From: a virus
Length of the DNA: 23,820 nt
Strand: one strand, 5' to 3'
IMG/VR virus record: IMGVR_UViG_3300043436_001471
Coordinates: 1 to 23,820 of that record
Shown here: in pieces, positions 3,815 to 23,395 of the stretch
How the letters are laid out: every line of letters begins with the position of its first letter
How positions within the stretch are numbered: the first letter of the stretch is position 1
Translations under genes and position numbers: made by a program
The notes under the pieces: model-generated
The model's database searches: none
What the model was told of the DNA's origin: nothing
What the model saw: the letters and a program-made list of their open reading frames with translations, nothing else

Positions 3815-4081
3815 ATGAACTACGAAACAGAAAATTTCTACGATCAAGAGATTGAATTCACCTACGAAGGTAGGGAGTACGTCTGGCAAGGAGACTACAC
3901 TATAGAACACACAGGAGAAGATGAAAGCGAGTATGCTCCTGCCTATGGCGAAATAGAGATCAGCATAGATCACACTACTAGCCTGTCCTATTATGATGAA
4001 GATCTTGAGAAGGTAGTAGAGGTAAAGCCTACTGCTTCGATTCTCATGGAATTAGAAATCCAAATTGAAAGAAACTATTAA
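3815..4081 (+). CDS. Acidic 88-aa protein, first gene of the early operon
   Basis: The start at 3815 (leader aaaccaATG) is preferred over an in-frame codon at 3758 because the latter would place the promoter inside the gene. The protein is strongly acidic, with beta-like alternation (IEFTYEGREYVWQGDYTIEH, YGEIEISIDH). First-expressed acidic small proteins in phages are sometimes DNA mimics or host-takeover factors, but no homology supports that here. It lies 19 bases upstream of the ERF gene. Confidence 0.68.
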   Translation: MNYETENFYDQEIEFTYEGREYVWQGDYTIEHTGEDESEYAPAYGEIEISIDHTTSLSYYDEDLEKVVEVKPTASILMELEIQIERNY

Positions 4082-4100
4082 CCAAATAAACACAAACCAA

Positions 4101-4640
4101 ATGAAAGAACTTATTAAAATTCAGGCAGAATTGAAAGCCCCAAAGAATCAATTTAATTCCTTCGGCAAGTACAAGTACAGGTCAGTAGAAGACATCTTAG
4201 AAGCGGTGAAGCCTTTACTATTAAAGTATGAATGCACCTTGATAATTGAAGATGAAGTTAAGGAAGTAGGAGGTATAGTATTTATTGAATCAACTGCTTC
4301 AATTCAGAAGGACATGGAAGGCAGAGCGGTTACTGCTCAGGCAGGCATTGACATAAATCGTAAAGGCATGGACATAGCACAGTCATTTGGGTCATCTTCA
4401 TCCTATGCTAGAAAGTACGCATTGAATGGTTTATTCCTGATTGATGATACCAAAGATCCTGATTCAACAAATGACCATCAGCCAAAAGCATCTACAAAGG
4501 TAGCACCTACAGAAGAGCAGTTTGCCTATATAGTTAGATATCTGAACGGAACAGATTCACAAAAGAAGCAGGCTAAAGAGGCCATGAGCAAGTATACATT
4601 TAATCAAAATCAATTAGACATCTTAGAAGGACTGATATGA
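4101..4640 (+). CDS. erf: ERF-family single-strand annealing recombinase
   Basis: This 179-aa protein matches the ERF superfamily, which anneals complementary single strands during phage recombination and genome circularisation. The hallmark elements are present: YKYRSVEDILEAVKPLL at residues 24-40 and GSSSSYARKYALNGLFLI at 97-114, followed by the Asp-rich DDTKDPD. The C-terminal ~55 residues form a separate, likely helical tail after a Pro/Ser/Thr linker. ATG 4101 with an A-rich leader (aaaccaaATG) is preferred to ATG 4065, which would overlap the upstream gene. It is coupled to the Gp157-like gene by ATGA, a common ERF neighbour in siphophages. Confidence 0.9.
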   Translation: MKELIKIQAELKAPKNQFNSFGKYKYRSVEDILEAVKPLLLKYECTLIIEDEVKEVGGIVFIESTASIQKDMEGRAVTAQAGIDINRKGMDIAQSFGSSSSYARKYALNGLFLIDDTKDPDSTNDHQPKASTKVAPTEEQFAYIVRYLNGTDSQKKQAKEAMSKYTFNQNQLDILEGLI

Positions 4641-9381: not shown

Positions 9382-10461
9382 ATGAAAGACAATAAGCACA
9401 GATTCCCGTACAAATGGAATCTAAAGGATGCAGTATTCACTAAGGATAAAGGCAAAGTTTTTTCCTGCTTCGCTTGCGGTGGAGGCTCTACAATGGGCTA
9501 TAAGTTAGCCGGGTTTGATGTTCTAGGATGCAATGAGATTGATCCTAAAATGATGGAAGCATACAAGGCTAATCACAATCCAAAGTATTCTTTTCTTGAG
9601 GGTATTCAAACCTTTAAACTTAGAGATGATCTTCCAGAAGAACTTTATAACCTTGACATACTTGACGGATCACCTCCATGCAGTTCGTTCTCTATGGCAG
9701 GGAATAGGGAATCCGATTGGGGAAAGGAAAAGAAATTTAGAGAAGGCCAGGCTGATCAAGTCCTTGATACTTTGTTTTTTGATTTTATTGATCTAGCAAA
9801 AAAACTGCAGCCAAAAGTAGTAGTGGCTGAGAATGTTAAGGGCTTACTTCTAGGAAATGCTATTGAGTACGTTAAAAAGATTTATAAGGAGTTTGACCAG
9901 GCAGGATACTACTGCCAGCATTGGCTACTTGATGCCTCAAAAATGGGAGTACCACAAAGAAGGGAAAGAGTATTCTTTATTTGCATGAGAAAAGATATTG
10001 CAAATCCTTTCCTTCAGCAAGTTGATTTCTTTACATCTCTTCCTAAATTAAGTTTAAATTTTGATGAACCTGAAATACTTTATAAAGAATTAAAAACAGG
10101 AATCATGGGAAGAGAATTGACTTGTCAGACCAGATTACTTTGGGAAGAAAGACTTCCTACAGATAATGATTTCGGAGAAATTAATATGAGATTAAATAAT
10201 AAAATAAATAGATTCGGGTTAAAATTTATAGATGATGAAAAGGTCTCATTGACTTTATGTGCAAATGATGAATCTGAACATGTTAAAAAAGATGTTCCGT
10301 ACAGAATAGAAGAGAATGAAATAAAAATGATAGGAACTTATCCATTAGATTATGATTTCAAAAAGAATAAAGTAATTTATTTAGTAGGAATGTCTGTGCC
10401 TCCAGTAATGACTGCACAAATTGCTACAGAGATTTACTCACAATGGCTTTCAAAAATTTAA
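9382..10461 (+). CDS. DNA (cytosine-5) methyltransferase
   Basis: This 359-aa protein has the C5-methyltransferase motifs in order: motif I FACGGGSTMGYKLAGF (residues 30-45) for S-adenosylmethionine, motif IV DGSPPCSSFS with catalytic Cys100, motif VI ENV (150-152), motif VIII QRRERVFFI (192-200), and motif X GMSVPP near the C-terminus (GNSVPP in most members). Residues about 210-335 are the target-recognition region. Base composition drops from about 40% G+C in the first half to about 27% at 10081-10380, suggesting exchange of that region. No restriction enzyme gene was recognised nearby, so it is probably an orphan that protects phage DNA. The ATG follows the ATPase stop directly. Confidence 0.93.
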   Translation: MKDNKHRFPYKWNLKDAVFTKDKGKVFSCFACGGGSTMGYKLAGFDVLGCNEIDPKMMEAYKANHNPKYSFLEGIQTFKLRDDLPEELYNLDILDGSPPCSSFSMAGNRESDWGKEKKFREGQADQVLDTLFFDFIDLAKKLQPKVVVAENVKGLLLGNAIEYVKKIYKEFDQAGYYCQHWLLDASKMGVPQRRERVFFICMRKDIANPFLQQVDFFTSLPKLSLNFDEPEILYKELKTGIMGRELTCQTRLLWEERLPTDNDFGEINMRLNNKINRFGLKFIDDEKVSLTLCANDESEHVKKDVPYRIEENEIKMIGTYPLDYDFKKNKVIYLVGMSVPPVMTAQIATEIYSQWLSKI

Positions 10462-14046: not shown

Positions 14047-14388
14047 ATGGACTTAAAAAAGAAAGCATTTCTTGAAGCCTATAAAAAGGCCTTTGGTAAT
14101 ATATCAAAGGCCTGCAAGGCTACCAATATGGACAGGGGGACTTTCTACGATTGGAAGGTCAAAGATCCTGAGTTTTTATCTGCATTGGAATCCATTGAGC
14201 CTGATGAAGACTTTGCTGATTTTGTGGAGGATGCCTTAGTAGAAAAGATCAAGGACAAAGATACTACTGCTATCATTTTCGCCTGCAAAACCAAACTTAA
14301 AAAGAGGGGCTATGTAGAACGGCAGGAGATTACCGGAGCAGATGGCAAAAAGGTATTCGAGGTGAAGATCGTGGATGACGGCAATTAG
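14047..14388 (+). CDS. terS: Terminase small subunit-like HTH protein
   Basis: This 113-aa protein carries an N-terminal HTH (about residues 6-37, KAFGNISKACKATNMDRGTF then YDWKVKDPEF), a central acidic helix (DEDFADFVEDALVEKI) and KDTTAIIFACKTKLKKRGYVERQE. The last segment is the typical C-terminal half of phBC6A51-type small terminases. Its role is to recognise the packaging site on phage DNA and deliver it to the large subunit. It overlaps the large-subunit gene by 14 bases, as expected of a terS-terL pair. Confidence 0.85.
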   Translation: MDLKKKAFLEAYKKAFGNISKACKATNMDRGTFYDWKVKDPEFLSALESIEPDEDFADFVEDALVEKIKDKDTTAIIFACKTKLKKRGYVERQEITGADGKKVFEVKIVDDGN

Positions 14389-16888: not shown

Positions 16889-18066
16889 TAACCCTAGTAG
16901 AACCAAGTATCGATATCCTTCCGGCATTCAATCGGATCAACTACACGATAAGCAGCACGAACTCTGAGGAGATCGGTTTCAAGTATGTGGTCAAAGTATA
17001 TAACTCAGATGATGAACTCGTGACTACTGCATACTATGACAGCCCTGCTGATCCTGGAGATCCTGTGGAGTTCGATGTCTCTAAGTACGTCTCTGTAGAC
17101 TTTACCTACAGCAAAGGGTTCTATGAGACTGCTACTTCCTCAAGTTCAAAGAATGCTATTAAGGGATACTACCTGAAGTGCTACGAATACTATGAGGTTG
17201 ATGGGGAATTTGTGATAGTCCTAGCAAGCGAAGTAGTGAGTGAAACCAAGTATGCTTTCGCCGGTGCTTTGCCTTTGCTTGAGTTGAAGAATTGGTACTC
17301 AGGCCAGGCTCAATATTGGGGATCTAGCAACACAGTCTACAAGCCTTTGACAGCATGGGATACTATCAAACTAAGAGAGACCGATGCTCAGGTTTTTGGC
17401 TTTATCAATACAGGTCTTTTGACCAATGTCGAACTATTGGTAACCTACACAAACGCTACAACTCAGACCTACTATATCACACCTACCACAGTAACAAGTC
17501 CGCATATTACCTACATTCAGATCACTCCTTTGACCTATGGCGGTAGTGTGGCATCTATCCAACTATTCGTAAATTGGAATAACGGCTCTGCAAGGAGGTA
17601 CAAATTTGCAACCCTATACACTCAATCTTGTGGCAGGTACGATCCTATGCGTATAGCCTACCTTAATAAATACGGGGTTTATGATTTCTTCAACTTTGAC
17701 CTAGTGAATAAGACTACTTTTCAGATTGAAAAGAAGGGATATGAGAGAAACTATAACGGGGATATTTATGAGGCTAATGGGATAGTGGTGAAGAACGTGA
17801 ACCCTATCTACTTCACTAAGGAAACACAGAATTGGAGAATCATTTCGGACTACATTAATGACGTGCAGGCGGAACTACTAAGGGAACTTTACTCTTCCCC
17901 TTTGGTTTATTTGAACTTGGTGAATGATAACTACATCACTCCTTCATGGATACCGGTGAAGCCTAACGCTACCACATACGAGGTGAAGAAAACTGCCTCG
18001 GATAAGTTATTCAACCTAGAAATAGATGTAGAATTCCAACTACTAAACACCAGACAGGTAATATGA
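16885..18066 (+). CDS. Tail/baseplate-type structural protein
   Basis: This 393-aa protein is beta-rich, with many Tyr, Thr and Ser residues and no signal peptide. N-terminal segments look like immunoglobulin-like strands (FKYVVKVYNSDDELVTTAYY). The C-terminal third (DYINDVQAELLRELYSSPLV, then VKPNATTYEVKKTASDKLFN) matches a recurrent ending in Bacteroidetes phage tail proteins. I take it to be a minor tail or distal tail protein. It is joined by ATGA overlaps to genes on both sides. The structural role is likely; the exact position in the tail is inferred. Confidence 0.68.
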   Translation: MITLVEPSIDILPAFNRINYTISSTNSEEIGFKYVVKVYNSDDELVTTAYYDSPADPGDPVEFDVSKYVSVDFTYSKGFYETATSSSSKNAIKGYYLKCYEYYEVDGEFVIVLASEVVSETKYAFAGALPLLELKNWYSGQAQYWGSSNTVYKPLTAWDTIKLRETDAQVFGFINTGLLTNVELLVTYTNATTQTYYITPTTVTSPHITYIQITPLTYGGSVASIQLFVNWNNGSARRYKFATLYTQSCGRYDPMRIAYLNKYGVYDFFNFDLVNKTTFQIEKKGYERNYNGDIYEANGIVVKNVNPIYFTKETQNWRIISDYINDVQAELLRELYSSPLVYLNLVNDNYITPSWIPVKPNATTYEVKKTASDKLFNLEIDVEFQLLNTRQVI

Positions 18067-20237
18067 GCGCAAGGCTATTCGTAGAAGGGATCGAAGCGGA
18101 TACCCTTGGAGATATCGATGTTGATTTCACCTTCTCGGTGGCTGATGTTAGCGACATTGAGAGGAGAAATACTTCCTATTCAAAGACTATTATCCTGCCA
18201 AACACGGCAAAAAACCAGAGCCTTTTTGGGAATATCTTTGATATCTCTGTGAATAATGACTACTATGAGGAAGATGTCAATATCGGGGTAAACTTTAACC
18301 CTGCTAAACAGGCAAAAGCGCAGATCTTCCTTGATAACGTCAAGATATTTGACGGGGTTTTGAGGATGTCTAAGATCAATTCTAGGGAAGGAGATATCAC
18401 TTATGAGGTCAATATGTTTGGTAGGCTTCGGGATATCCTCCATGAGTTGGGTGATAAGACTTTGGCAGAACTAAATTTTGCGGACTATGACCATGTATGG
18501 AATAGAACCAATATTCAGAACTCTTGGAATAGGACTGAGTGGGTAGAAGGTGCGCAGAACTATGTCTACCCTTTGGTAGATTATGGCTATTCAGTTGACT
18601 CAATCACCTACCCTATCAAGAACTTCAAGCCTGCTGTTTTTGTCACGGAGATTCTCAAGCGGATTTTCTCCGAGGCTAACTTTCAACTAACTGCACCTTT
18701 CTTTGAAAGTTTCTATTTTAGAAAGTTGCTACTGATCACGGCAGAGAAGACCATCACAAGGGAAAGCACTACCCTACTAAATCAAACTACTAACCTATTT
18801 CAGCAAGAGGTAACTACAGATCCTGACTTTACCCATCTGCTAGGATTTACATCCGTAGAGACTTCAGGATTCACCATTACTAACTCAGGCACTCGATTCA
18901 CATGGAATAAAGCGCAGCCTTTAAACACAGGATTAAACCTAAATTTTAAAATATTCTTGGAGGCTTTACAGGGCTACACAGATAACGTCTGGACAGTGTC
19001 AGTTTTAAAGAATGGTTCAGAAGTTTTGTACAGCAGCAAGTTAGTTTCCTTTATTTCTGCAGGTCAAATCTATGCTTGGGATGTCTCAATTAGTGGAGGC
19101 ATTGATCTTGCCTTGAATGACTACTTTGAAATCAGGCTAACCGGAGAGGTTGCAGGATCAGGAACGAATACCCAACTACAGACAGAGGTAGTGATTCAGC
19201 CTGGAGGAACATTCAAGATAGGCAACACAGTACCCGTGGCTGTAGAACTTGAGGAAGGGGATACTATGAAGATAGGTTACACCTTGCCAAAGTCAATGAA
19301 GCAGAGGGATTTCTTGAAGTCTATCATATCGATGTACAACTTGTATGTAACTCAGGACAGGCTTCGGACAAATGTCCTTGAGATAGTGCCTTATAATGAG
19401 TTCTACAGAACCTTTAAAGATCAGGCACTTGATTGGAGTGATAAACTAGACCAATCACAGGACATCACTATAACCCCTCTTTCCGAACTATCGGCAAAGG
19501 AATACAGGCTTACCTTTGATGATGATTCAGACTACTGGTCTACATCCTATAAGACCAAATTCAATGAGGCTTATGGGGAAAGCAGAACGATCATAGACAA
19601 TGATTTCATACTTGATACAAAGACTGTCAAGGTGGTCTTCAGCCCTCCTGTAATGCGGGAGCAGGTAGCAGGTAGAATCATGATTCACCTTTACAAAGTG
19701 GAGAATGGGGTCAAAGTACCTGACAACTTCAAGCCTAGAATAGCATATTGGAAGCCACAGGTTGAATGCCCTTCTTGGAATATCGGGTATGCTTCAGGGA
19801 ACATAGCCTATACTACCTATCCCTATGCAGGTCACCTAGACGATCCTATCGAGCCTCAGACAGATGTCCTTTTCTCTTTCCCTCGGGAGGTCTATTTCAG
19901 CATTGGTTTATACCCTCAAAATAATAACCTTTACACGGAATATTATGAGGGGCTAATCACTTCGATAGGTGACAGAAATAGTAGGCTTTTAGAGGGATAT
20001 TTCTACCTAACTCCTACCGATATTTCAAACCTAGATTTTAGAACTATCGTGAAGGTAGGTGTTCACTACTTCCAACTTGAGAAGGTGGATAAATACAACC
20101 CGATAGCGAACGGACTTTCCTACGTTTCCCTATTCAAGATCCTGAGAAATATTAGCCCTGTGGACTATGACTACATCCTTCTTGAGAATGATGCCTATAT
20201 GCTACAGGAAAACGGAAGTTCTAGATTTTATATTTAA
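18063..20237 (+). CDS. Large tail/baseplate protein
   Basis: This 724-aa protein starts SARLFVEGIEADTLGDIDVDFTFS and has a distinctive N-terminal region (VADVSDIERRNTSYSKTIIL, NTAKNQSLFGNIFDI) that I know as a conserved opening in Bacteroidetes phage tail proteins. The centre (about residues 250-400) looks like an inserted beta-sandwich, rich in Thr and Ser, that could bind carbohydrate. The rest includes SMKQRDFLKSIISMYNLYVT and EIVPYNEFYRT, patterns seen in baseplate hub-like proteins. A hub or tail-tip role is inferred from size, place and fold type. Coupled to the upstream gene by ATGA. Confidence 0.66.
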   Translation: MSARLFVEGIEADTLGDIDVDFTFSVADVSDIERRNTSYSKTIILPNTAKNQSLFGNIFDISVNNDYYEEDVNIGVNFNPAKQAKAQIFLDNVKIFDGVLRMSKINSREGDITYEVNMFGRLRDILHELGDKTLAELNFADYDHVWNRTNIQNSWNRTEWVEGAQNYVYPLVDYGYSVDSITYPIKNFKPAVFVTEILKRIFSEANFQLTAPFFESFYFRKLLLITAEKTITRESTTLLNQTTNLFQQEVTTDPDFTHLLGFTSVETSGFTITNSGTRFTWNKAQPLNTGLNLNFKIFLEALQGYTDNVWTVSVLKNGSEVLYSSKLVSFISAGQIYAWDVSISGGIDLALNDYFEIRLTGEVAGSGTNTQLQTEVVIQPGGTFKIGNTVPVAVELEEGDTMKIGYTLPKSMKQRDFLKSIISMYNLYVTQDRLRTNVLEIVPYNEFYRTFKDQALDWSDKLDQSQDITITPLSELSAKEYRLTFDDDSDYWSTSYKTKFNEAYGESRTIIDNDFILDTKTVKVVFSPPVMREQVAGRIMIHLYKVENGVKVPDNFKPRIAYWKPQVECPSWNIGYASGNIAYTTYPYAGHLDDPIEPQTDVLFSFPREVYFSIGLYPQNNNLYTEYYEGLITSIGDRNSRLLEGYFYLTPTDISNLDFRTIVKVGVHYFQLEKVDKYNPIANGLSYVSLFKILRNISPVDYDYILLENDAYMLQENGSSRFYI

Positions 20238-20242
20238 GAATT

Positions 20243-23200
20243 ATGGCAGATAAGAGAATAAGTCAACTGATTGAGAGAACGGACATTGCTAATAACGATG
20301 TCCTTCCTATAGTAGCAAGCGGTGCTACCACTACGAACAAGGTAACTGTTTCAACCCTTCAGGATTGGATGCAGGACAACCTAGATGTAGGGGTAACTTC
20401 GGTAGGTCTTTCAGTACCTTCTGCCTTTACAGTATCTGGTAGCCCTGTAACTACTTCAGGAAATATCACTATTTCAGGAGCAGGAACTACAGCGCAGTAC
20501 ATCCGAGGTGATGGTAGCCTAGCAGACTTCCCTTCAAGTATAGGTGGTGGAGGTGCTTCCGTTTCTTACTACCTAAATGGATCAGTATCTCAGGGTACTA
20601 TCGGGGGTGTGGCTTATCGTGAATTGAGCAAGTCACCTATTTTGGGAGCAGGCACAGATTTCACCATCAATGCAGACGGCTACATAGCCTCATTCATTAC
20701 GGATGCTGGAGATCCTAGCCTACTTGAGATTCCAGGCGGTAATTGGAATTTTGAAACCTACTTCCAAGCATCTTCAGGAGGTGGAACTCCTACCTTCTAT
20801 GTAGAACTATACAAAGTTAGTTCAGGCGGTACGGCTACCTTGATAGCGACTAGCAGCGGAAGCCCTGAGTTGATTGCTTTCGGTACAAATATCACCCCAT
20901 ACTTCTCTAGCCTTGCAGTTCCTACTACTACCCTAGCCCTTACAGATAGGCTTGCTATCCGTTACTATGTGGCTCACTCAGGTAGGACTATTACCCTCCA
21001 CACAGAAAACAATACCCTCTGCCAAATCATCACCACATTCACCACAGGCTTGACTGCCTTGAATGGGTTGACTGCTCAGGTGCAGAACTTCGCAACGGGT
21101 ACAAGTGGCACGGATTTCAATATCTCAAGTGCAAGCACTACCCACACCTTTAATCTTCCAGATGCCTCTGCTTCGAATAGGGGTGCAGTCACTACAGGTA
21201 GCCAAGTTTTTGGAGGCGTTAAGACCTTCGCGAATGGCTTATCTTTACCCTCTGCCGGAGGTAGCAATCAGGTGACTAGATTGGTCAACATTGGAACTCT
21301 TCACGAAGGTAGTGCTACCTTGAACCAGATAGGATTCAATAGTGCAAATAATATCTACTTCGGAAAAGGTCTTTCAAATGGAGGGGTACTTCAATGGACA
21401 AATGCAGCGGTAAGATATTACACTTTGCCGGATGCTGATGGCACTCTTGCTTTGGCTAGTCAACTAGGTGCTTATCTTCCTTTAGCAGGGGGAACTTTGA
21501 CAGGTGCTTTAAATGGTACTTCCGCAGTTTTTAGCGGTGATGTTCAAAGCGGTACTAGACTCATTGCTGCTGCCTCAAGTCAATCTATTCTTTTGACTCC
21601 TAATTCAGGAGGATCTACCAACCGAGTAGAAAGCGTAGGCACTTTACCTTTGGCTTTGGTATCTGCTGCTGCTATAACTATGGCAGCCGGAGGTACTACT
21701 CCTCAGATTACTTTGACCACAGCAGGCAATGTAGCAATAGGAACAGGATCAGTAACAGGAGCAATTAATGCTGATTCATTAAGGGCAAACTTAATTTTAG
21801 GTGCTGCAAATAGCAATAAAATTTCATTTAATAATGGATCTACAACTGAAACAGGATTTATTTATAATGATCCATCAGAAACTGCGATAGGCTACCCATC
21901 AGCAGGGTCATTTAAAATTCAAAGAGTTGGTGTAGGTAGTGTATTAACCCTAGCCTCCACAGGCGCGGCTACCTTCTCAAGCAGCGTGACGGCTGCAGGA
22001 AATGTTACAATTTCATCAACTACTAATTCAAGTTTAATTGCTGCTACAAATTCAACTACAGGATTTACCTTTATTGATTTAATAAACAATGGAGCATCAG
22101 GCAGGAATTACCAAATAGGTCTTGGTGGAAATGGAGCAGCAGCAGGATATGCAAATAATTTATATTTTGATTTAGTAGGCTCAGGGAATATCATGACCTT
22201 GACAAGTGGTCGCAACGTAGGCATAGGCGTAGTTCCTAGTGCATGGTCGGGTATTGTTCGCGGTTTTCAAGTTGCTTTAGGTGCATCTTTTTCAGGCAAT
22301 ACTGCAACATCAGATGCTTACATGACTTCTAATTGTTACTATGATGGATCAACTTGGAGGTATATAAAATCAGGTGAATTTGCTTTGAGTTATGATGCAA
22401 GGGGAGGAACAGGTGACTATGTTTGGCAAACTGCACCAAGTGGAACTGCAGGTGCCGCTTTGACTTTAACCGAAAGAATGCGCATCACTTCGGGGGGGTC
22501 TGTTCAAATTGGAACATCATCGGGAAGTGGTGCAAAAACATTTATTTACGATAATAGATCAAATAGCACTTCTCTAGATGAGGCTGCTTTGTATGTTAGA
22601 CAAGACGGCACAAATGCAATTCAGACATGGGCAGGAGGTGGAGCAAACGAACGGATGCGCATCACTTCGGGGGGGAATGTAGGCATAGGCACGGATAGTC
22701 CTCAAGATAGATTAGATGTTAATGGTTCAATCCGATTCCGAGGAAACACATCAAACTTTACGGCAGTTACAGACAATGCTGTAATTGATTATGTTCCAAC
22801 TTCTGTTTTTGCAACTGCTCCACAAATTAGAATTGCATCTATTGGTACTGCTAGTGTTGGTGCTTCGATTAACTTCTTGACAGGAACATCGACCTCTTTA
22901 GATACGAGAATGAGCATCACTTCGGGGGGGGCAGTTTTAATTGGGCATACTGCTACTACATACTCAGAAAAAGCATTGATTCAATATGCAGGAGGAGATA
23001 ATCAAGGACTGCATATTAATCAAACAGGGTCTACAGCAGCAAATGATAAGATTCTTTTTTCTAATGGAAACGGAATAGTGGGTTACATTAGAACAGATGG
23101 TTCTGCTACTTCCTATGTGACTGCTTCGGATTATAGATTGAAAGAAGACCTTCAAGAAATTAATGGACTTGAAAAAGTATCTGCTTTGAAAGTATATGAT

Positions 23201-23395
23201 TTTAAATGGATAAATTCAGAAGATAGAACAGATGGTGTACTTGCCCATGAACTTGCAGAGGTATTGCCTTATGCAGTAAGTGGTGAAAAGGATGGGGATC
23301 AAATGCAAGGAGTTGACTATTCCAAAATAGTACCTGTCCTAATCAAAGCAGTACAAGAACTTAAAGCAGAAATAGATTCACTTAAAACCAAATAA
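20243..23395 (+). CDS. Tail fibre with C-terminal S74 intramolecular chaperone
   Basis: This 1050-aa protein begins with a virion-anchor type segment (ADKRISQLIERTDIANNDVLPIVA). About residues 95-260 form a beta domain starting YYLNGSVSQGTIGG. A long Gly/Ser/Thr/Ala-rich shaft follows, with recurring MRITSGG-x-V-x-IG units. The last ~90 residues are a peptidase S74 domain, the endosialidase chaperone: TASDYRLKEDL with the Ser962-Asp963 dyad, YDFKW, GVLAHELAEVLPYAV and a final helix VLIKAVQELKAEI. The domain helps the fibre trimerise and then cuts itself off. It is probably the receptor-binding fibre. The shaft shows sharp shifts in base composition. Confidence 0.9.
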   Translation: MADKRISQLIERTDIANNDVLPIVASGATTTNKVTVSTLQDWMQDNLDVGVTSVGLSVPSAFTVSGSPVTTSGNITISGAGTTAQYIRGDGSLADFPSSIGGGGASVSYYLNGSVSQGTIGGVAYRELSKSPILGAGTDFTINADGYIASFITDAGDPSLLEIPGGNWNFETYFQASSGGGTPTFYVELYKVSSGGTATLIATSSGSPELIAFGTNITPYFSSLAVPTTTLALTDRLAIRYYVAHSGRTITLHTENNTLCQIITTFTTGLTALNGLTAQVQNFATGTSGTDFNISSASTTHTFNLPDASASNRGAVTTGSQVFGGVKTFANGLSLPSAGGSNQVTRLVNIGTLHEGSATLNQIGFNSANNIYFGKGLSNGGVLQWTNAAVRYYTLPDADGTLALASQLGAYLPLAGGTLTGALNGTSAVFSGDVQSGTRLIAAASSQSILLTPNSGGSTNRVESVGTLPLALVSAAAITMAAGGTTPQITLTTAGNVAIGTGSVTGAINADSLRANLILGAANSNKISFNNGSTTETGFIYNDPSETAIGYPSAGSFKIQRVGVGSVLTLASTGAATFSSSVTAAGNVTISSTTNSSLIAATNSTTGFTFIDLINNGASGRNYQIGLGGNGAAAGYANNLYFDLVGSGNIMTLTSGRNVGIGVVPSAWSGIVRGFQVALGASFSGNTATSDAYMTSNCYYDGSTWRYIKSGEFALSYDARGGTGDYVWQTAPSGTAGAALTLTERMRITSGGSVQIGTSSGSGAKTFIYDNRSNSTSLDEAALYVRQDGTNAIQTWAGGGANERMRITSGGNVGIGTDSPQDRLDVNGSIRFRGNTSNFTAVTDNAVIDYVPTSVFATAPQIRIASIGTASVGASINFLTGTSTSLDTRMSITSGGAVLIGHTATTYSEKALIQYAGGDNQGLHINQTGSTAANDKILFSNGNGIVGYIRTDGSATSYVTASDYRLKEDLQEINGLEKVSALKVYDFKWINSEDRTDGVLAHELAEVLPYAVSGEKDGDQMQGVDYSKIVPVLIKAVQELKAEIDSLKTK
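22478..22931 (+). repeat. Repeated G-rich linker ATGCGCATCACTTCGGGGGGG in the fibre gene
   Basis: Exact 21-base copies sit at 22478-22498 and 22655-22675, and a near copy (ATGAGC start, eight G) at 22910-22931. They encode MRITSGG, but the shared third-position choices, including TCG GGG GGG, exceed what the protein requires. The stretches between them are AT-rich and unrelated. They could act as recombination joints for swapping fibre segments. Confidence 0.65.

Follow-up and report, generated by a model that had tools for sequence, protein, structure and literature searches.

Mosaic fibre genes are known from the lambdoid phages, whose tail fibres carry short homologies; no ordered set of DNA joints is known in them. 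Recombination between conserved motifs reportedly swaps the specificity of the gp38 adhesins of the T-even phages (Tetart 1998). These adhesins contain four hypervariable segments and five glycine-rich motifs (PMC12529663, available portion). In addition, tail fibres are among the hotspots of mosaicism (Smug 2023, PMC10684548), the C-terminal fibre regions of marine phages vary between concurrent environmental phages and come after fibre-specific repeat patterns (Mizuno 2014, PMC3909814), and recombination events have been found in the tail fibre gene and adjoining gene of Litunavirus phages (PMC9786124), all according to the available portions of these papers. Here a tail-fibre gene is described from positions 1 to 23,820 of the IMG/VR virus record IMGVR_UViG_3300043436_001471, a stretch of 23,820 nucleotides (nt) called the window below. 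The gene (20243..23395, + strand), an open reading frame (ORF) of 3153 nt encoding 1050 amino acids, matches Pfam S74 and PHROG tail fibre families. When related loci are compared, most segments of the fibre differ in almost all relatives, the short joints between them are shared including their synonymous sites, the joints keep an order and blocks bounded by joints are cleanly replaced. These comparisons suggest that the fibre is very probably a modular one, in which the segments are interchangeable and short DNA joints are the places where phages recombine by homology.

Related loci were collected from IMG/VR through the 724-amino-acid protein encoded directly 5' of the fibre (18063..20237, + strand; best 80 of 100 loci) and through the fibre itself (54 loci). 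The former gene is kept in relatives, serves as the backbone yardstick and is called the upstream gene. The fibre N-terminus is carried by 109 loci, 75 after contained copies were dropped, and the window was compared with 50 of these 75, namely those with a head identity of at least 60% and at least 1500 nt; later tests used 48 non-redundant fibres or all 51. The fibre head (20243..21160, + strand, as are all features of the gene) is common to about 20 to 46 of the 50 relatives, and after it the sharing profile becomes a row of narrow islands of 30-50 nt, each in up to about half of the relatives. The island LPLAGGTLTGAL is found in up to about 27 of 50 and ASTGAATFSSSV in about 24, the three copies of ERMRITSGG or RMSITSGG in about 27, 24 and 22, and the final 44 nt in about 22. 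Between 21743 and 23090 the DNA outside the islands matches about 0-2 of the 50 relatives, except at a weak island encoding GRNVGIG (about 7).

Four joints, a, b, c and e, were picked by hand from the first comparisons, and this catalogue is incomplete. Joint a (YLPLAGGTLTGALNG; 21473..21517, core 21494-21511; about 22-27 of 50 relatives) is followed by segment a-b (21518..21949), the first 225 nt of which occur in about 4-9 of 50 relatives and the remainder in about one. Joint b (LASTGAATFSSSVTAA; 21950..21997, core 21959-21988; up to about 24 of 50) precedes one or more variable segments (21998..22467) that match about 0-1 of 50, apart from the GRNVGIG island, which is weakly c-like (22208-22237). 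The stretch 22232-22477 was unmatched in the phages collection. Joint e, copy 1 (ERMRITSGG, 22468..22498), is separated by a variable segment (22499..22647; about 1 of 50) from copy 2, which is fused to joint c (ERMRITSGGNVGIGTDSP; 22648..22702). A further variable segment (22703..22904; 0-1 of 50) leads to the third and last copy (RMSITSGG, 22905..22930), the C-terminal cassette (22931..23351), which carries Peptidase_S74 (about 23126-23278) and is replaced by other cassettes in other relatives, and the conserved 3' end of the gene (ELKAEIDSLKTK; 23352..23395).

The turnover of segments is extensive. Cutting the fibres gave 134 segments, among which the 22 segments between joints b and c fall into 20 DNA families and the 26 between c and e into 26 DNA (24 protein) families. 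Among the 48 fibres there were 49 DNA segment matches, 28 of them within one slot type, 20 between types sharing a border and one neither; 43 had a testable neighbour, and none of the 43 continues past its joint. When the head was omitted and all 51 fibres were taken, 44 of 45 distinct junction comparisons stop, the one that continues being in a near-identical pair (L204/L208; relatives are designated by L numbers). Individual comparisons show the same pattern. Identity between the window and L228 is 93.7% over 7735 base pairs (bp), starting at 14260 and finishing with joint b at 21994; the 1,357 nt that follow contain a single match of 32 nt, joint e, at E<=1e-5, and from 23352 the identity is again 94.2%, the homology extending downstream of the gene. 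L228 and L242, whose upstream proteins are 72% alike, are 96.7% identical in the final 627 nt from joint e, and L231 and L019 (70%) have b-c segments 96% alike with both neighbours unshared. L229 is longer than L172 by about 243 nt at joint a. Furthermore, when islands were defined as 15-mers present in at least four other fibres, with a tolerance of +-24 nt, block ends fell on islands in 21 of 39 cases at identities of at least 92% (20% expected by area) and in 69 of 171 at at least 80% (23% expected).

Mosaics of this kind could in principle be chimeras of metagenome assembly made at shared repeats of 30-50 nt. The relatives are indeed metagenomic contigs, and the 44-kb contig IMGVR_UViG_3300024346_000136 traverses two versions of the locus (L210 and L211): its two copies of the region lie about 31.9 kb apart and are 98.8% identical over 10,058 bp into joint a, after which the fibre tails differ. 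In this contig the assembly has apparently gone 1.4 times round a genome of about 32 kb, passing from one strain to another. The contigs of L012/L203 and L024/L231 start inside the fibre, which also speaks for chimerism. Perhaps assemblers break at joints in these contigs. However, the junctions of six fibres (L004, L179, L194, L208, L229 and L238) recur unchanged in contigs from two or three metagenomes with different numbers, assemblies of related samples not being fully independent; most segments are unique, unlike the outcome of chimerism between shared pieces; and two cultured phages described below, CRP-7 and S-CRES1, have linkers with frozen codons too. Assembly chimerism is thus a very unlikely source of the mosaics.

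The joints are also ordered. Among 200 informative pairs 191 follow the order a, b, c, e and 9 are against it, and 2000 shuffles gave at most 64.5%; at least two joints are present in 33 of the 48 fibres. Cores b, c and e were found nowhere outside the fibre gene on either strand in the 413 kb around the 48 fibres. Joint a is the least specific of the four, because its 18-nt core also matches 19 sites outside the fibre gene in the same 413 kb.

Conservation of the joints extends to their DNA. The 48 non-redundant fibres contain 27 copies of MRITSGG, spread over 22 fibres, and in these 27 copies arginine is encoded by CGC 23 times, isoleucine by ATC 24, threonine by ACT 27, serine by TCG 26 and the two glycines by GGG 25 and 19 times. 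The shares of these codons among those for their residues in the same fibres are 5% (CGC), 17% (ATC), 42% (ACT), 5% (TCG) and 10% (GGG); in the upstream gene CGC has 1%, TCG 9%, ATC 42% and GGG 31%. Between phages, codon identity at positions with the same residue is 0.71-0.88 at the joints across four divergence bins, and over the same bins that of the upstream gene (found with 45 of the 48 fibres) drops from 0.79-0.84 to 0.48-0.49. Moreover, the identity persists where both flanks of a joint are unrelated (25 of 38 copies of b, 30 of 46 of c and 17 of 27 of e): codon identity is then 0.566, 0.651 and 0.773 for b, c and e, exceeding all 500 simulations based on the codon usage of the fibres (expected 0.361, 0.394 and 0.339); the usage of the upstream gene would give 0.295, 0.327 and 0.280.

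Across viruses at large, MRITSGG is encoded by at least 96 different 21-mers in at least 123 copies, so the freezing of codons is a phenomenon within lineages. In a mixed set of loci, 75 ORFs with at least two linkers had a codon identity within the ORF of 0.594 versus 0.380 expected, 14 of the 75 not being above the expected value. A second dialect (ATG[AC]GAATCACATCGGGG) was represented by seven ORFs chosen for it, and comparison of L137 with the six others shows islands where the linkers are; the last linker is common to them by the selection of these ORFs. Nine phage records contained seven ORFs with at least two linkers, and among these cultured-phage ORFs the codons are frozen in CRP-7, S-CRES1 and one ORF of HTVC168P.

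The main competing account of these data holds that the linkers are conserved as protein only, for example as structural turns, and that their DNA identity results from codon bias and common descent. A role of the linker peptide in the protein is itself probable, since the motif recurs with different DNA in many viruses, cultured phages included, and GGG and ATC are common codons of the upstream gene. CGC, however, is as rare in the fibres and the upstream gene as given above, the codon identity of the joints drops little with divergence, and it exceeds what usage predicts even between unrelated flanks. Conservation as protein alone is therefore improbable. A related idea, that the joint codons are kept for translation or folding, such as slowing of the ribosome between domains, with no role in recombination, has in its favour that joints b, c and e sit at segment borders and use codons rare in the fibres. 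Against this, other lineages encode the same peptide with different codons, TCG is kept over TCC although both have a share of 5% in the fibres, and breakpoints and order are left unexplained; this idea is most unlikely.

The preliminary description of this DNA had drawn attention to G-rich linkers coding MRITSGG between AT-rich inserts. Such linkers are real: the 21-mer ATGCGCATCACTTCGGGGGGG occurs exactly at 22478-22498 and 22655-22675 and with one mismatch at 22910-22930, encoding MRITSGG twice and MSITSGG in the third copy, with runs of seven, seven and eight G (the eighth G opens the next codon). It is absent from the rest of the window at up to three mismatches, and 100 shuffles of the window gave no match. 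The linkers had been described as identical and as of one kind; the three copies are nearly identical, but at least four kinds of linker exist, and the G-run reflects the codons chosen in one of them and is no general feature of linkers. The segments after joint a are more AT-rich, as claimed (guanine + cytosine (GC) content 0.38-0.41; 0.36 in the C-terminal part), but the head (0.46) is not AT-rich. Joints b and e have 0.53-0.65, and joint c is likewise GC-rich; joint a, with 0.42, is not. The stretch 21961-22000, which had been noted as GC-rich beside AT-rich DNA, falls in joint b (GC 0.65), a second kind of linker. At third codon positions the upstream gene has a GC content of 0.44, the head 0.32 and the segments 0.15-0.24, and the values for joints a, b, c and e are 0.29, 0.51, 0.55 and 0.77, respectively.

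Homopolymeric G-runs of 7-8 in the gene of a surface protein would be familiar as phase-variable slippage tracts, which here might switch the C-terminal cassette on and off. Yet synonymous GGT, GGC or GGA shortens the run in 8 of 27 copies and the other joints are free of runs. Moreover, among related fibres that end at a stop codon only L014 has joint e within 2.5 kb past the stop, and its frame is broken by two deletions away from the G-run. Slippage is an exceedingly unlikely function of the runs. The two deletions of L014 are seen against the otherwise near-identical L179 and may be real or a fault of assembly.

If the joints do act in recombination between phages, the interchangeable segments, mostly about 200 nt and up to about 1 kb long and bounded by joints a, b, c and e, would be exchanged during co-infection by annealing at identities of 20-35 nt. 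A plausible enzyme is encoded in the window itself: an ERF-family protein (4065..4640, + strand; Pfam PF04404, 7.7e-35), of a family of single-strand annealing recombinases, which may promote the annealing; PF04404 was also found in 16 of 22 records of relatives. The minimal pairing segment is 23-27 bp for Red-beta and 31-34 for RecA, and Erf/Exo of D3 is roughly as efficient as lambda Red (De Paepe 2014, PMC3945230, available portion). Exact stretches of at least 23 nt are present in 14-31% of joint pairs versus 1 of 400 random pairs, most joint pairs now being shorter. Every exchange would reset the joint, and the joints would therefore remain uniform and the reading frame would be kept. Joint sequences specific to a position may help to hold segments in their slots, and the segments themselves might be units of the shaft or units that bind receptors, selected by the host.

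A fibre whose head is conserved and whose segments are hypervariable could also point to a dedicated machine, either a diversity-generating retroelement or a site-specific recombinase of the shufflon or invertase type. In the window and the 22 relatives' records, which may be fragments, there was no reverse transcriptase (PF00078), serine resolvase (PF00239) or tyrosine integrase (PF00589; 0 of 23 for each). The joints, furthermore, are direct repeats or differ from one another, and no inverted repeats bounding the segments were found, just nine short imperfect inverted pairs. A dedicated machine is thus, as far as these records go, highly improbable. Recombination at the joints, if true, gives a DNA-level account of how new fibres arise in frame and in the correct order without such a machine, and frozen joints between unrelated segments become a marker for exchangeable segments in metagenomes. 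A more tentative extension, which is rather doubtful at present, is that the joints form an address code for each slot border that is renewed by exchange, by which segments drawn from a large common pool could enter the correct slot in frame, that a shared dialect delimits a group of phages compatible in recombination, and that other phage lineages with the fibre motif MRI-[TD]-S have frozen-linker systems in other dialects. Whether shared joints set which phages can trade host-recognition parts becomes a testable question. Among ORF pairs with an identical last joint 25 of 408 have a common block, and with at least nine differences 0 of 952, a comparison that is confounded by kinship and was not counted.

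The C-terminal chaperone takes part in the turnover. The 26 cassettes attached at joint e make up 15 DNA families; S74 is matched by 21 cassettes and Peptidase_G2 by one, three (L229, L261 and L210) end otherwise by alignment, and that of L180 is cut by its contig. The Peptidase_G2 cassette replaces S74 behind joint e in L006 (6567-7268). In L229, L261 and L210 the fibre ends in a third way, with ALDDYE or ALNDYE and EGTWTP after joint e or a variant joint; no Pfam family was found in the cassettes of L229 and L261. The S74 chaperone is thus itself exchanged. The preliminary description had proposed that the linkers could be recombination joints for exchanging putative receptor-binding segments while the S74 chaperone stays constant. 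The role of the linkers as joints is supported, as it is by segments that the relatives differ, with an excess of breakpoints at the linkers, block replacement at joints was seen instead of full-length alignment without swaps, and in this phage group the synonymous sites of the linkers are not free to vary; the constancy of the chaperone is not supported.

Several observations weigh against recombination at the joints as the explanation, or limit its reach. The material consists of metagenomic contigs, as mentioned. Block ends lie off the islands in 18 of 39 cases at identities of at least 92% and in 102 of 171 at at least 80%; therefore, either exchange also takes place away from these joints or some joints are missing from the catalogue. 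Ten of the 48 fibres have none of the four joints, and 7, the window included, have a pair out of order. In the closest divergence bin joint a has a codon identity of 0.75, below the 0.84 of the upstream gene. ATC and GGG are frequent in the upstream gene, so not all joint codons are foreign to the phage, and the codon choice of the joints could be partly backbone-like because these two are common there. No clear freezing was seen in four of the seven cultured-phage ORFs, those of P-TIM68, S-PRM1, S-EIVl and the other ORF of HTVC168P. In addition, the evidence for ERF is its presence only, and 6 of 22 records, maybe fragments, show none.

Further joints, two of them candidates, lie in the window. 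One candidate is within the head (NLDVGVTSVG, 20378..20413, + strand), where sharing falls from about 42 to 31 of 50 relatives and the matches of L180, L261 and L177 to the window break at 20406-20417. A second (PDADGTLALA, 21428..21457, + strand) is common to about 16 of 50, and one match of L261 ends at 21457. A third, a degenerate c-like joint (LTTAGNVAIGT, 21713..21745, + strand), coincides with block ends of four relatives, the matches of L226, L159, L180 and L261 ending at 21744, 21734, 21715 and 21715, respectively.

As for the protein, the Pfam scan places Peptidase_S74 (PF13884, 1.2e-09) at residues 962-1012 of 1050, at the C-terminus, as in the class of fibres that end in an S74 intramolecular chaperone. 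An AlphaFold2 model of residues 664-1050 was of low confidence outside the S74 part (mean predicted local distance difference test score (pLDDT) 48), and phmmer found no solved relative at E<=0.01. Terminase and tail genes are also on the + strand of the window according to Pfam and PHROG scans. The nearest terminases (about 39%) come from a human-faecal phage record and from Bacteroides and Flavobacterium phages. In a collection of genome contigs neither a relative of the upstream 724-amino-acid protein nor the exact linker was found. The window also encodes a C5 cytosine methyltransferase (9382-10461), and 10982-11785 matches a phosphoadenosine phosphosulfate reductase PHROG family.

Among the described systems, relaxed recombination by Rad52-like phage recombinases resembles the present case, as far as the available portion of PMC3945230 goes, in that the window has an ERF-family gene, and a minority of joint pairs offers stretches of pairing length; there, homologies of hundreds of bp and mosaics of at least 100 bp are concerned, whereas here the homology is short and lies at fixed, repeated places within a gene. 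The mosaicism study of Smug (PMC10684548) compares hidden Markov models of proteins, and the available main text has none of the terms linker, breakpoint or S74. Likewise, recombination and conserved motif are not among the terms of the available main text on marine phages (PMC3909814), nor linker and motif of that on Litunavirus (PMC9786124). The literature searched, available in part and covering few subscription journals, gave no account of fibres with ordered joints at the level of DNA. By analogy, the closest precedent is T-even gp38, although no gp38-named family is among the Pfam and PHROG matches of the fibre and no direct comparison with gp38 was made. As in gp38, judging from the available portion of its description, a protein of host recognition has short conserved motifs between its hypervariable segments, and in the present fibre both this arrangement and exchange at the motifs were found. 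Unlike gp38, however, this fibre of 1050 amino acids has several different DNA joints, which are ordered, and its C-terminal chaperone is exchanged as well.

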